Below, one piece after another: positions 6,655-63,488 of a DNA stretch of 64,000 nt. The notes under the pieces are model-generated. The model had not been told where the DNA came from and made no database searches. It saw only the letters and a program-made list of their open reading frames with translations. The translations under genes and the position numbers were made by a program. Position 1 is the first letter of the stretch, and each line of letters starts with the position of its first letter. The stretch comes from Echinarachnius parma (Eukaryota; Echinodermata; Echinoidea; Clypeasteroida; Echinarachniidae), in contig JBAMJV010009155.1 of NCBI GenBank assembly GCA_037951105.1, positions 1 through 64,000 of the forward strand. The letters are read 5' to 3'.

Positions 6655-8032
6655 AATTGAAATTGATGAGTAGGTGTGGATAGTAGGTGTGGATAGATGG
6701 ATGAATGGATAGAATCAAAATAGGTGGATGGATTGGGGGGGGGGGGGGGGGGGGGGGGGTAGAAAGTTGGATGGATGAATGAGTAGGTGGATAATATGAA
6801 AGGATAATAGATGAACAGATAATGGATAGGTGGATGGATGAATGGATAGATAGATGAGCAGATGAATGAACAGGTGGATGGATGAATGGATAGATGAGCA
6901 GATGAATGAATAGGTGAATGGATGAATGGATAGATATATAGATGAGCAGATTAATGAATAGGTGGATGGATGAATGGATAGATAGATGAGCAGATGAATG
7001 AATAGGTGGATGGATGAATGGAGAGCAGATGAGAATGAATGAACAGGTGGATGGATGAATGGATAGATAGATGAGCAGATGAATGAATAGGTGGATGGAT
7101 GAATGGATAGATAGATGAGCAGATGAATGAATAGGTGGATGGATGAATGGATAGATAGATGAGCAGATGAATGAACATGTGGATGGATGAATGGATAGAT
7201 AGATGAGCAGATGAATGAATAGGTGGATGGATGAATGGATAGATAGATGAGCAGATGAATGAACAGGTGGATGGATGAATAGATAGATGAGCAGATGAAT
7301 GAACAGGTGGATGGATGAATGAATAGATAGATGAGCAGATGAATGAACAGGTGGATGGATGAATGATAGATAGATGAGCAGATGAATGAACAGGTGGATT
7401 GATGAATGGATAGATAGATGAGCAGATGAATGAACAGGTGGATGGATGAATGAATAGATAGATGAGCAGATGAATGAACAGGTGGATGGATGAATGGATA
7501 GATAGATGAGCAGATGAATGAATAGGTGGATGGATGAATGGATAGATAGATGAGCAGATGAATGAACAGGTGGATGGATGAATGGATAGATAGATGAGCA
7601 GATGAATGAACAGGTGGATGGATGAATGGATAGATAGATGAGCAGATGAATGAATAGGTGGATGGATGAATGGATAGATAGATGAGCAGATGAATGAACA
7701 GGTGGATGGATGAATAGATAGATGAGCAGATGAATGAACAGGTGGATGGATGAATGGATAGATAGATGAGCAGATGAATGAATAGGTGGATGTGATGAAT
7801 TAATGGATATATAGATGAACAGATGAATGAATAGGTGGATGGATGAATGGATATATAGATGAACAGATGATGAATAGAATAGGTGAATGGATGAATGGAC
7901 AGATAAAAGGTTGATGAGTAGGTGGATGAATGAATGATGAGTAGGTGGATATATAAATGGATAGGTGGATAGATGAATAGATACATGAATACGTGAATGG
8001 ATGAATGGATAGGTGGATAGATAAATGGATAG
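6655..8032. repeat. 44-bp satellite array
   Basis: About 30 tandem units built on GATGAATGGATAGATAGATG, GAGCAGATGAATGAACAGGTGG, with small length variants and degenerate GGTGGATA units at the right end. Open frames of more than 440 codons across it are by-products of the repeat. Confidence 0.95.
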
Positions 8033-18085: not shown

Positions 18086-18762
18086 GTGGGCCATCGTTGT
18101 TGATGGGTTAATAGCAAGAACCATGCTGAAAAAAAAAATCTAAACACACAAGAATTTCTGTATATCACTCTTTTTATTTTATTGGATCATGCATGCACAG
18201 CACATTTAAAATAGCACATAATAACATAATGGCAATGTATACGAGCACAGATGTGTTACAGATATTTATACCTCCCCTTTCAAATATTTTTCTGATGCAA
18301 ATTTTACTTTTACTACCCTAGCATGAAATAATAAAGCATTACAGAATAATAGTGTTTGTGTTTCATGCTTAATATACCAAAGTTAGTATAATTTAACAAA
18401 ATATTCATTGAAAAATAATAATCTAGATTATATCAGCCTTCACTTTCAACTTCAACATTTCGATGAATATCTTAACCTCACTACAACCAAGCATGCAATA
18501 TTGAAGAAGCATTAAGAATAAACGTGTTTCCCATTGAATATTTAGTGAATACTCTTTGTCAAAACAAATTAATTCAAACACAATATACTGATAGCATCAT
18601 TAGTGAAAAAGCAAGTAGGCTCACAAAATACAAGATAACATTTATTTTGCAACACACATAATACATGTAATTGTTTATATAAAGTTAAACATTCAAAATC
18701 AACTGCCAACACCATTTCAAATACATGACCATAAAATAATTCAAATATTGAACACAAAGTAA

Positions 18763-19580
18763 GAAACTTATTTACTCTAATAAATGCTAAATATAATCAT
18801 CAAAATATAAATTAGATTTCTCACACGCTCTAATCTAAACATTCAAGGCATGTTTTCCCCTTCAGAAATGGATGGATGTTTTTAGCAACGAATGGACGGA
18901 ATGGATGTTTATAGTCTTCTCGAATACTCTGTAATAACAATCTTATCTATTTATAGTAATATATTTTCAACTGCAAATTCTTTTAGAAACTTATTTACTC
19001 TAATAAATGCTAAATATAATCATCAAAATATAATTATAGATTTCTCACACGCTCTAATCTAAACATTCAAGGCATGTTTTCCCCCTTCAGAAATGGATGG
19101 ATGTTTTTAGCAACGAATGGACGGAATGGATGTTTATAGTCTTCTCGAATACTCTGTAATAACAATCTTATCTATTTATAGTAATATATTTTCAACTGCA
19201 AATTCTTTTAGAAACTTATTTACTCTAATAAATGCTAAATATAATCATCAAAATATGAATTAGATTTCTCACACGCTCTAATCTAAACATTCAAGGCATG
19301 CTTTCCCCCTTCAGAAATGGATGGATGTTTTTAGCAATGAATGGACGGAAAGGATGTTTATAGTCTTCTCGAATACTCTGTAATAACAATCTATCTATTT
19401 ATAGTAATATAGTTTTAACTGCAATTTTTAATTCAACAAAACATTGAATATACGAAAATCACCAATGGATGGAAGTTTCTAGCAATTTAACTGGACGGAA
19501 TGAGCTGATGAAAGGATTATCTTCTTGTAATACCATCAGAATGATCTATGTATGAAGTTCACTTTAACTGCATATTTTAA
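18763..19580. repeat. Tandem array, about 224-bp unit, three good copies and one diverged
   Basis: Units start GAAACTTATTTACTCTAAT at 18763, 18986 and 19211 and contain AAATGGATGGATGTTTTTAG. The third grades into a diverged fourth copy (ATGGATGGAAGTTTCTAG). Confidence 0.9.
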
Positions 19581-19647: not shown

Positions 19648-20080
19648 CTCAAAGATACTGACATTTTATATACTAATTTGGTGTGATCTGATTAATACAT
19701 CTTGGACGGATATAACTGCATCTGTACATGTATATGAGAAGTTGACAAGCGGCTTGAGTTCTCAACAATGGTTTAAATTTAACTCTGGGTTTAAATCTTG
19801 TAAATTTTATTATTAATCCATGGACTACATTTTAATTCGTAGACAACATTTGAAAAATGCAACCCTCAAAGATACTGACATTTTATATAAATTTGGTGTG
19901 ATCTGATTAATACATCTTGGACGGATATACATGTAACTGCATCTACATGTATATGAGACGTTGACAAGCGGCTTGAGTTCTCAACAATGGTTTAAATTTA
20001 ACTCTGGGTTTAAATCTTGTCAATTTTATTATTAATCCATGGACTACATTTTAATGCGTAGACAACATATGGAAAATGGC
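19648..20080. repeat. Tandem duplication, 217-bp unit, two copies
   Basis: CTCAAAGATACTGACATTTT begins copies at 19648 and 19865. The unit also contains GAGTTCTCAACAATGG and GGACTACATTTTAAT. Confidence 0.9.
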
Positions 20081-20176
20081 AATTCCAAGCAAACCGTCAC
20101 AGCTAGGTTCACCAAAACTTCACCCTTCTGCCGTTTGAATCCTTCCAATATTTATATGGCTACTGCAAGCATTTCA

Positions 20177-20494
20177 GGGGGGTGTTTCACAAAGATCCTA
20201 AGATGAACTTAGCACTAAGTTGGACTTAAATATCATGGTAAGCCATTTGTAGCCTTGGAATATAAAATATTCCAAAGCAAACAAAATAGAATTTTAAACT
20301 TTTTATAAATGTTGCATCAAGAACATGAACTCTCCTTCAGTTGATAATAGAAAAATATTAGTGATTTGAAACAACATTGTATGCCTTTTAAAAGGACTTT
20401 TAAAATGTTTGTTCAAAGAAACTAATGGCTTTCCATACTTTTTAAGTCCAACTTAGAGTTAAGTTCAACTTAGGATCTTTGTGAAAAACCCCCC
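20177..20494. mobile_element. Foldback MITE, GGGGGTGTTTCAC family, copy 1
   Basis: Left end GGTGTTTCACAAAGATCCTA, right end TAGGATCTTTGTGAAAAACC, with near-palindromic interior (GCCATT and AATGGC blocks). Same family as 30190, 40778 and 50230. Confidence 0.85.
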
Positions 20495-21301
20495 TGTACT
20501 TATAATAATGAGAACATACATATTTGAAGTATAATTTAAATGCCAAAAGGGTTATTTGTGGCTACACCGTGACATGTTGTCCACTTTTGAATGGAACTGC
20601 CCTCAAACCAAATGTGCGGAATTAAATTTAACCATGGACTGAAATAACCCAGAGGTGAATTTAACCCTCTGATGAGAATTTGGGCCTTTAAAAAAAATGT
20701 TTATTGCTACAAAAATGATGTGATGAAACATATTTCAGACATATTAGTCAAGGTATTTGAAAATTCAGATATATATTTCTATTTCTTCTCCGACATAATG
20801 ACAGCAAGGCACGAAAAATACATTAATATATAAAAAAAGGAATAGAAAATGTAGAAAAGGAGCATTACACCATCATGGTGAATGTGCACAACTATATTTA
20901 GGAGCAACACCATATATAATAAATATACCAAAATATACACTATAGAGTACTTTCAAACTTCAAAATTATCCACATTGCCCCAAAATGAACACTTTTTTAA
21001 TATCTTGGAAAATCAGCAAATCTAAAGATTTTAAATTGTTCAAGATATTTCATTTCAATTCATAACTGTAATAAACAATTTGCATGATGCTAAGACAGAG
21101 ATGATTAGATCCTCGTGATATTATAATTATATATGACGAGAAAGCAATTAAGGAAAATCGCCTGAACGACACTAGTTGCAGATAAAGTCAATATGAAATT
21201 ATTTAACTAGCACAAAAATGATTTTGGCTCTGTACTATGTATGTATTAATTTTGTAGATGGAGCACGTGTGTGTGGGGTGGGGGGGGGGGTATGTCAGAG
21301 G

Positions 21302-21470
21302 GGGCAGGGCCCCTACTTTGTGTCACACAGCAGGGCTACTCCCCTCAGGATCCAGTGGTCAGGGCGCTGTACGGTCTTGAGGTACAGGTAAATATATATG
21401 TCAGATTTGTATGGTGCAGCTTCTTGTAGCTGACGTGGGATGTGCAAAGACTGAGATCCTTATTACCGAT
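21302..21470 (-). pseudogene. Shadow copy of heavy-chain terminal exon
   Basis: Matches the last exon and its 3' side (CCCCTACTT-GTGTCACACAG, CAGGATCCAGTGGTC, GTACGGTCTTGAGGTACA), then decays through TTCTTGTAG and GATCCTTA. It lies 40 bp beyond the functional stop codon, same strand. A G-run of 15 or more separates it from the true exon. Confidence 0.9.
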
Positions 21471-21511
21471 GGGGGGGGGGGGGGGTGGGGATATCAGAGT
21501 GGACATGGCCC

Positions 21512-63488
<41,977 letters not shown>

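Follow-up and report, generated by a model that had tools for sequence, protein, structure and literature searches.

The window, i.e., the whole stretch of 64,000 nucleotides that was analysed, contains most of one long gene on the minus strand:

21512..63488, minus strand, DNAH5/DNAH8-type axonemal dynein heavy chain gene, found with gene-model scripts and phmmer against PDB, 50 exons modelled

The 5′ end of this gene lies beyond the window. The best PDB match of the heavy chain (phmmer) was 8j07_n0, "Dynein axonemal heavy chain 5", and it also matched 9fqr_I3 (4730 aa), whose label names another protein and which we take to be DNAH8. The 50-exon model came from a gene finder trained on the window and was corrected by open-frame inspection; one of the 23 training peptides and one forced peptide were unmatched and therefore unused in the gene models. 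Exons 15, 21, and 41 of an earlier model were dropped as spurious. A relaxed model chained copies of exon sequence as exons (its exons 23-26, 33, 35-36, 43-44, and 57); these were removed by hand, as was its unsupported exon 56, and exon 14, which it overran, was kept as in the earlier model. The exon numbering coincides with that of the original prediction. Chains matching DNAH5-type PDB sequences included 47 of the 50 exons, some with provisional ends, and exons 20, 24, and 40, which were added after the first search, aligned in place to PDB chains; the 5′ part of exon 13, an addition from the relaxed model, was outside the DNAH5/DNAH8 alignment search. The translated exons aligned in order to DNAH5/DNAH8 chains, which shows the parent exons to be intact and coding beside the repeats described below. 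Median exon and intron lengths were 156.5 and 571 bp, with GC contents of 0.562 in exons and 0.366 in introns, and GC3 was 0.784. A search with Rfam over the window gave a single tRNA, a tRNA-Ala (AGC) gene at 41960-42034 on the plus strand, located in the dynein intron between exons 29 and 30 and thus on the strand opposite to the dynein gene. No contaminating relatives were found among the bacterial and archaeal genome contigs scanned.

Each of the 50 exons, without intron sequence, was compared by Smith-Waterman alignment to its own flanks (1.5 kb per side), in which all exons and TRF repeats with a period of at most 12 were masked. The maximum score of 1200 comparisons between exons and foreign flanks, 30, was used as the threshold. 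Fourteen of the 50 exons scored above it on the same strand (exons 3, 19, 23, 25, 27, 28, 30, 33, 35, 38, 39, 40, 47, and 50), and none of the 100 comparisons between exons and their own flanks did so on the reverse strand (maximum 27, exon 29). The copy of exon 14 was concealed by the mask; unmasked, a comparison that has no null, it scored 103 and showed an intact donor. Over the whole window, 84 same-strand local matches with a score of at least 50 were found compared to 14 inverted ones, overlapping rows of the same array being counted separately. These results confirm that same-strand partial exon copies, hereafter shadows, are present in the flanks of the dynein exons. The shadows, including borderline cases and a related intronic pair, are:

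21275..21629, minus strand, exon 50, copy at 21275-21429 and parent at 21474-21629, period about 200, exon identity 0.85
23855..24111, minus strand, donor end of exon 47, copy at 23855-23926, shift 185, identity 0.89 in exon and 0.79 in intron
24199..26513, minus strand, acceptor end of exon 47, array at 24199-24762 that resumes at 26281-26513, units of about 168-170 bp
29619..29643, minus strand, borderline copy of the acceptor end of exon 42, 25 bp, 84%, score 30 and thus equal to the null maximum
30782..31361, minus strand, exon 40, copy at 30927-31022 with microsatellite intron to 30782, exonic identity 0.93, donor deleted
31813..32526, minus strand, exon 39, older donor-side copy at about 31822-31870
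32339-32400, minus strand, upstream copy of exon 39, aligning solely with the exon interior
32304-32358/32472-32526, minus strand, intronic pair near exon 39
32597..33248, minus strand, exon 38, donor copy at 32597-32673 (shift 209, in-frame stop in the copy) and acceptor copy at 33181-33248 (shift 202)
34877..35018, minus strand, duplication at the donor of exon 36, 80 bp, mostly intron with 6 exonic bases
35421..36099, minus strand, donor-side array of exon 35, period about 197, about 3.45 copies
37397..37918, minus strand, acceptor-side array of exon 33, period 211, about 2.5 copies, identity 0.94 in exon and 0.92 in intron
41281..41767, minus strand, acceptor-side array of exon 30, period 195, about 2.5 copies, identity 0.95 in both exon and intron
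42947..43212, minus strand, donor-side tandem pair of exon 28, period 133-134, 1.99 copies
43642..43669, minus strand, marginal copy of exon 27, 28 bp, 82%, score 31 compared to the null maximum of 30
44825..45168, minus strand, exon 25, acceptor-side copy at 45017-45168, exonic identity 0.94
46824..47533, minus strand, acceptor-side array of exon 23, period 154, 4.6 units
50583..51013, minus strand, exon 19, acceptor-side copies at 50703-50788 and 50846-50952, period 164 between the copies
53425..54003, minus strand, exon 14, donor-side copy at 53425-53488, identity 0.92 in exon and 0.93 in intron, donor kept
62097..62338, minus strand, exon 3, two-piece copy with an exonic part at 62135-62169 and a donor-containing part at 62097-62134

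Shadows had originally been claimed for 17 exons, about a third of those in the gene. Fourteen of them are clear (exons 3, 14, 19, 23, 25, 28, 30, 33, 35, 38, 39, 40, 47, and 50), and exons 27 and 42 are borderline; the copy of exon 27 includes no exon edge and may be a chance match. The strict share is thus 28% (14/50), and the overall share about a quarter to a third. The duplication at exon 36 is essentially intronic: a 63-bp copy aligned at 78%, but the exon sequence scored 22 against the threshold of 30, and exon 36 was rejected as the parent of an exon shadow.

Most copies consist of a unit that runs from the interior of an exon over its edge into the intron, with the copy adjoining its parent on the same strand. 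The exceptions are exon 25, in which the intronic alignment comprises 3 bases, exon 50, in which the copy holds the last 117 coding bases and 38 bases of 3′ flank and the edge is the stop codon, and the interior upstream copy of exon 39. Boundary copies were found on the acceptor side of exons 47, 38, 33, 30, 25, 23, and 19, and on the donor side of exons 47, 40 (donor lost in the copy), 39, 38, 35, 28, 14, and 3. Exons 38, 39, and 47 were copied on either side with differing shifts and therefore probably in separate events. In the acceptor array of exon 47, which is split by a later insertion of about 1.5 kb, the acceptor AG is gone from both aligned copies, and between exon 14 and its copy an expanded TCA microsatellite is found. 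Among the 23 events within the gene, 17 overlap an exon, and exon 14 is one more. The same-strand adjacency and the presence of intron support the claim that the copies are DNA-level tandem duplications, mostly of an exon edge plus intron, and not retrocopies. The differing ages assigned to them were also borne out, as exonic identity ranged from 0.78 to 0.97 (0.78-0.88 for the donor-side and upstream copies of exon 39).

No whole-exon duplication was found among the 17 exon-overlapping events, whose arms were inspected, and none of the aligned copies had both splice sites of its own exon. The shadows are thus mostly one-sided, as had been noted, but a separate cause is unneeded: for units placed at random, a whole exon is included in 0.8% (130 bp) to 16.6% (230 bp) of the units that contain an exon edge, so that geometry predicts one-sided truncation. 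A special process, selection or a break preference was accordingly dropped as an explanation of the truncation. Whole-exon copies might also be lost by selection, since splicing might include them. A unit that spans one edge was shown to leave the exon intact at one of the array ends, while the neighboring intron receives a half-exon that has no more than one splice site. Tandem exon duplication that gives rise to alternative exons also produces local same-strand copies of exon sequence; the present structures differ from it in that none of the duplications found comprised a whole exon together with its two splice sites. Some exon-edge arrays showed fractional copy numbers (2.47-4.61) compared to near-integer numbers elsewhere, a contrast that is hard to interpret because of internal deletions and older end units. 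The copies do not discriminate between template switching, slippage, and break repair.

The lengths of the duplicated units fall within a narrow range, a regularity that the original prediction had overlooked. Twenty-one listed unit sizes, 18 from the gene and three from upstream DNA, ranged from 127 to 227 bp (mean 180, sd 30); this list omits units of 337 and 515 bp that microsatellites had lengthened, repeats below 100 bp, and, in the upstream DNA, one 819-bp pair of 39 bp. The upstream DNA contains two arrays in AT-rich sequence away from the modelled exons:

18762-19427, upstream tandem array, 225 bp, 97%
19648-20078, upstream tandem array, 219 bp, 93%

Their units of 225 and 219 bp belong to the same size class as those of the exon shadows. 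Counted by lag, the 12-mers shared within the gene numbered 184 (125-150), 485 (150-175), 479 (175-200), and 262 (200-230), with a single one at lag 230-260 and a second rise at 260-400 (62, 314, and 125); at shorter lags there were 212 (12-60), 197 (60-100), and 77 (100-125). Between lags of 125 and 230, 1410 direct 12-mers were found in the gene compared to 101 inverted ones and a block-shuffled mean of 0.3. As a few arrays supply most of the shared 12-mers, the event list is the better evidence on size. For this class of units only, unit length is confined to about 130-230 bp.

Duplication was not restricted to exons. Local same-strand copies above threshold were found for 14/50 exons (28%), 61/183 intron tiles (33%), and 41/140 upstream tiles (29%), and such copies scoring above 60 for 11 exons, 40 intron tiles, and 27 upstream tiles. 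The intron count includes tiles that hold the shadows; with exons masked it was 53/183. Judged by the inverted copies above threshold (none for exons, 18 for intron tiles, and 29 for upstream tiles), some of the non-exonic tile matches represent dispersed or palindromic repeats. The similar tile rates in exons, introns, and upstream DNA indicate that duplication is general in the window. They agree with the proposal that the whole region turns over by duplication and not the exons alone; a frequency no higher than in random genes had been named as evidence against the original prediction, and within the window, to which this part of the comparison refers, exons were no richer in copies than other sequence.

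Besides the tandem copies, several other repeats were observed. An inverted pair at 974-1810/2453-3269 (93%) is made up of units of about 151 bp, and related pieces are located in dynein introns at 29111-29324 and 51202-51563; together these probably form a dispersed repeat family. A second inverted pair of about 430 bp is present at 9089-9526/11291-11716 (96%), and a sequence related to its ends was found at 25633-25775, inside the insertion that splits the exon 47 array. Members of a dispersed repeat family, in part palindromic and up to about 350 bp long, match each other on both strands and are located at 20172-20498, 30189-30513, 40772-41124, and 50230-50411. Long arrays at 6774-8032, 53183-53952, and 56114-56413 consist of a minisatellite (44 bp) and microsatellites (TCA, TTCA), and the array at 53183-53952 extends around exon 14 and the shadow of this exon as well as between the two.

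Duplication may instead be aimed at exons or exon-intron edges, e.g., through well-placed nucleosomes or base composition, and the higher GC content of exons given above would fit this reading. Among events with a period of at least 100, 17/20 overlapped an exon compared to 7.8 expected at random (p 4e-5, uncorrected). When exons were given a twofold visibility, 11.2 overlaps were expected (p 0.006), and with a threefold visibility 13.1 (p 0.05). For young events, 8/10 overlapped an exon compared to 4.0 expected, with p values of 0.012 uncorrected, 0.053 at 1.5-fold, and 0.12 at twofold visibility. Among arrays detectable with exons masked the overlap was 6/9, with p 0.086, and 0.23 at 1.5-fold visibility. 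The visibility correction is itself not firmly backed by the decay figures given below, which favors targeting; on the other hand, the signal weakens with correction, exons do not differ from introns and upstream DNA in their tile rates, and the event lists were assembled by hand. The list of 20 contains the 23 in-gene events without the short-period events 34406, 34877, 42573, and 54143 and with exon 14 added by hand. Event 49835 (period 96) was kept at 148, exons 33, 35, and 19 were set to 211, 197, and 164, and units above 230 were capped at 230. The ten young events were likewise chosen by hand, and the exon-masked list was a hand-picked 9 of 14 events, without 32305, 33102, 34406, 42573, and 54143. 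With p values from 4e-5 to 0.23 depending on the correction and the event list, the exon bias of the duplication events is suggestive only, and we consider targeting of exons unlikely.

If a parent exon is held by selection while its copy drifts, exonic divergence is expected to be about half of intronic divergence. Pooled over 17 comparisons, divergence was 0.099 (119/1206) in exonic and 0.135 (113/840) in intronic parts, a ratio of 0.73. However, the intron part of exon 40 is a microsatellite that contributes 41 of the 113 intronic mismatches, and without exon 40 the values were 0.101 and 0.104, a ratio of 0.97 (bootstrap 0.65-1.42). At least 20 intronic sites were available in 13 of the 17 comparisons, which were split by age. 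The seven with intron divergence of at least 0.15 showed 0.119 in exons compared to 0.234 in introns (ratio 0.51), or 0.130 compared to 0.202 (ratio 0.65) without exon 40, and the six young ones, with intron divergence below 0.15, showed 0.071 compared to 0.052. When the split was made at an exonic divergence of 0.08, the exon/intron ratio was 0.91 above and 0.47 below this value. The intron was more diverged than the exon in 11/15 pairs. In five older events (exon 47 donor, exon 39 twice, and exon 38 twice) about 34-40% of the unit aligned, always including the exon; as a local alignment ends where the intron has decayed, some of the contrast between exon and intron is hidden. With their arms separated, these five could also be short non-adjacent copies. 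A twofold slower exonic decay had been deduced from the pairs picked for high intron divergence (0.119 compared to 0.234) and was withdrawn in view of the values without exon 40. The earlier claim that purifying selection makes exonic copies recognisable is thus plausible but not established, and the same applies to the idea that constraint keeps exonic shadows visible for longer. Since slower exonic decay is not firmly supported, the twofold and threefold visibility corrections used above are weakened.

Seven of the 16 copies checked contained a frame-shifting gap or an in-frame stop (exons 50, 40, 39 twice, 38 donor, 28, and 25, the last with two frame-shifting insertions); one of the seven is ambiguous, as the gap in the donor copy of exon 39 is located in a run of G at the junction and is possibly intronic. 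At the three codon positions, mismatch rates were 0.094, 0.062, and 0.14, i.e., with a mild third-position bias. In the exon 23 array, the acceptor was retained in all four copies that the relaxed model linked, and these four shadows (46966-47501) each continue in a 75-nt open in-phase stretch followed by a weak donor, by which they are candidates for occasional exonisation. It is very unlikely that the shadows in general are functional alternative exons or splicing regulators under selection: the exon 23 copies, which a gene model accepted as exons, would suit such a role, but close to half of the copies checked are disabled, aligned copies never carried both splice sites of their exon, and the third-position bias of the mismatches is mild.

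An assembly artefact in which two divergent haplotypes were joined in tandem has to be weighed too, as several copies and arrays are 94-97% identical. Identities in this range are possible between haplotypes of a highly polymorphic animal. Exonic identities nevertheless extend from 0.78 to 0.97, and the units are of one narrow size and present in up to 4.6 copies. Furthermore, the exonic parts of young pairs were no more alike than the intronic parts (0.071 compared to 0.052), unlike what is seen in haplotype pairs. We therefore regard a mis-join as very unlikely indeed. Return of reverse-transcribed exon pieces to introns hardly deserves consideration, although the exon 25 copy ends 3 bases past the acceptor and the upstream copy of exon 39 is exon only, as all other clear edge copies hold intron or 3′ flank where it is expected, on the same strand and beside the parent, acceptor-side copies are about as frequent as donor-side ones, and no copy joining two exons was seen among the alignments.

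Structures of this kind are already known from lancelet genes, a parallel that the original prediction had missed. In amphioxus, tandem duplications of intron-exon boundaries, first named "mirages" for Adh3, are described in the globin genes BflGb6 and BflGb9 (units of 150-160 and 157 bp), with haplotype differences in copy number, concerted evolution, and apparently undisturbed splicing, and were put forward as a model for intron gain (PMC3087553). Further amphioxus mirages are described in PGBD5 (units of 60 and 108 bp) and TnC (PMC3902484). The dynein shadows share with these a minisatellite-like unit over an exon-intron boundary, on either side of the exon, with an intact coding exon adjoining, and in structure they are mirages. 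They differ in that 14/50 exons of one gene are affected, with widely varied ages, and in that the DNA of one haplotype only is considered. In the literature searched, no case with so many copies in one gene and no report of 127-227 bp units with a sharp upper edge was found.

Short duplications of other origin are comparable in part. Small tandem duplications ascribed to break repair (CST/Pol alpha-primase fill-in and "patch-mediated" double-strand breaks) are likewise short, local, and head-to-tail, and small tandem duplications are reported to be the most frequent kind of short insertion in human DNA (PMC8355091). The units described for this class are below 100 bp, whereas those found here are mostly 127-227 bp. 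In yeast rad27 (FEN1) mutants, small inverted triplications with median 148 bp units are reported, the breakpoints of which fall on nucleosome midpoints and Okazaki termini, and tandem duplications are also raised (PMC13334657). In the dynein gene, by contrast, direct repeats predominate, and the events are known from sequence alone.

We consider it probable that the shadows result from repeated local tandem duplications of about 130-230 bp, which produce a structure of the amphioxus mirage kind. Such duplications would strike the region repeatedly, in introns, at exon edges, and in upstream DNA. A half-exon without a partner splice site within exon-definition distance would be ignored by splicing, and the duplication would thus be near neutral, persist, and drift. 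With the parent exon constrained and the copy drifting, exonic parts may stay recognisable longer than intronic ones. The narrow unit size would suggest that the units derive from pieces of fixed length, in the simplest case the size of a nucleosome or an Okazaki fragment, that are re-copied in lagging-strand synthesis, and arrays could later be enlarged by slippage or unequal exchange. By analogy with the rad27 mutants, the nucleosome repeat or the Okazaki fragment may be the obvious ruler for units of this size, but a single fixed size does not accommodate the published mirage units of 10-72, 60, and 108 bp. It is unlikely, though conceivable, that a process emits tandem duplications of very nearly one nucleosome repeat (about 130-230 bp) with a preference for the edges of exons, which have the best-positioned nucleosomes, and that boundaries are continually re-copied in this way.

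If such an edge-preferring process exists, it would keep half-exons constantly available as material for new introns and alternative splice sites. A conserved exon beside its drifting half-copies could also be used to date small tandem duplications that would otherwise vanish, provided that slower exonic decay is demonstrated at further loci. Should the unit size observed in this gene hold genome-wide, these arrays would constitute a natural record of replication- or chromatin-sized duplication in the germline of an animal, on which the old idea that duplicated splice sites give rise to new introns could be tested.
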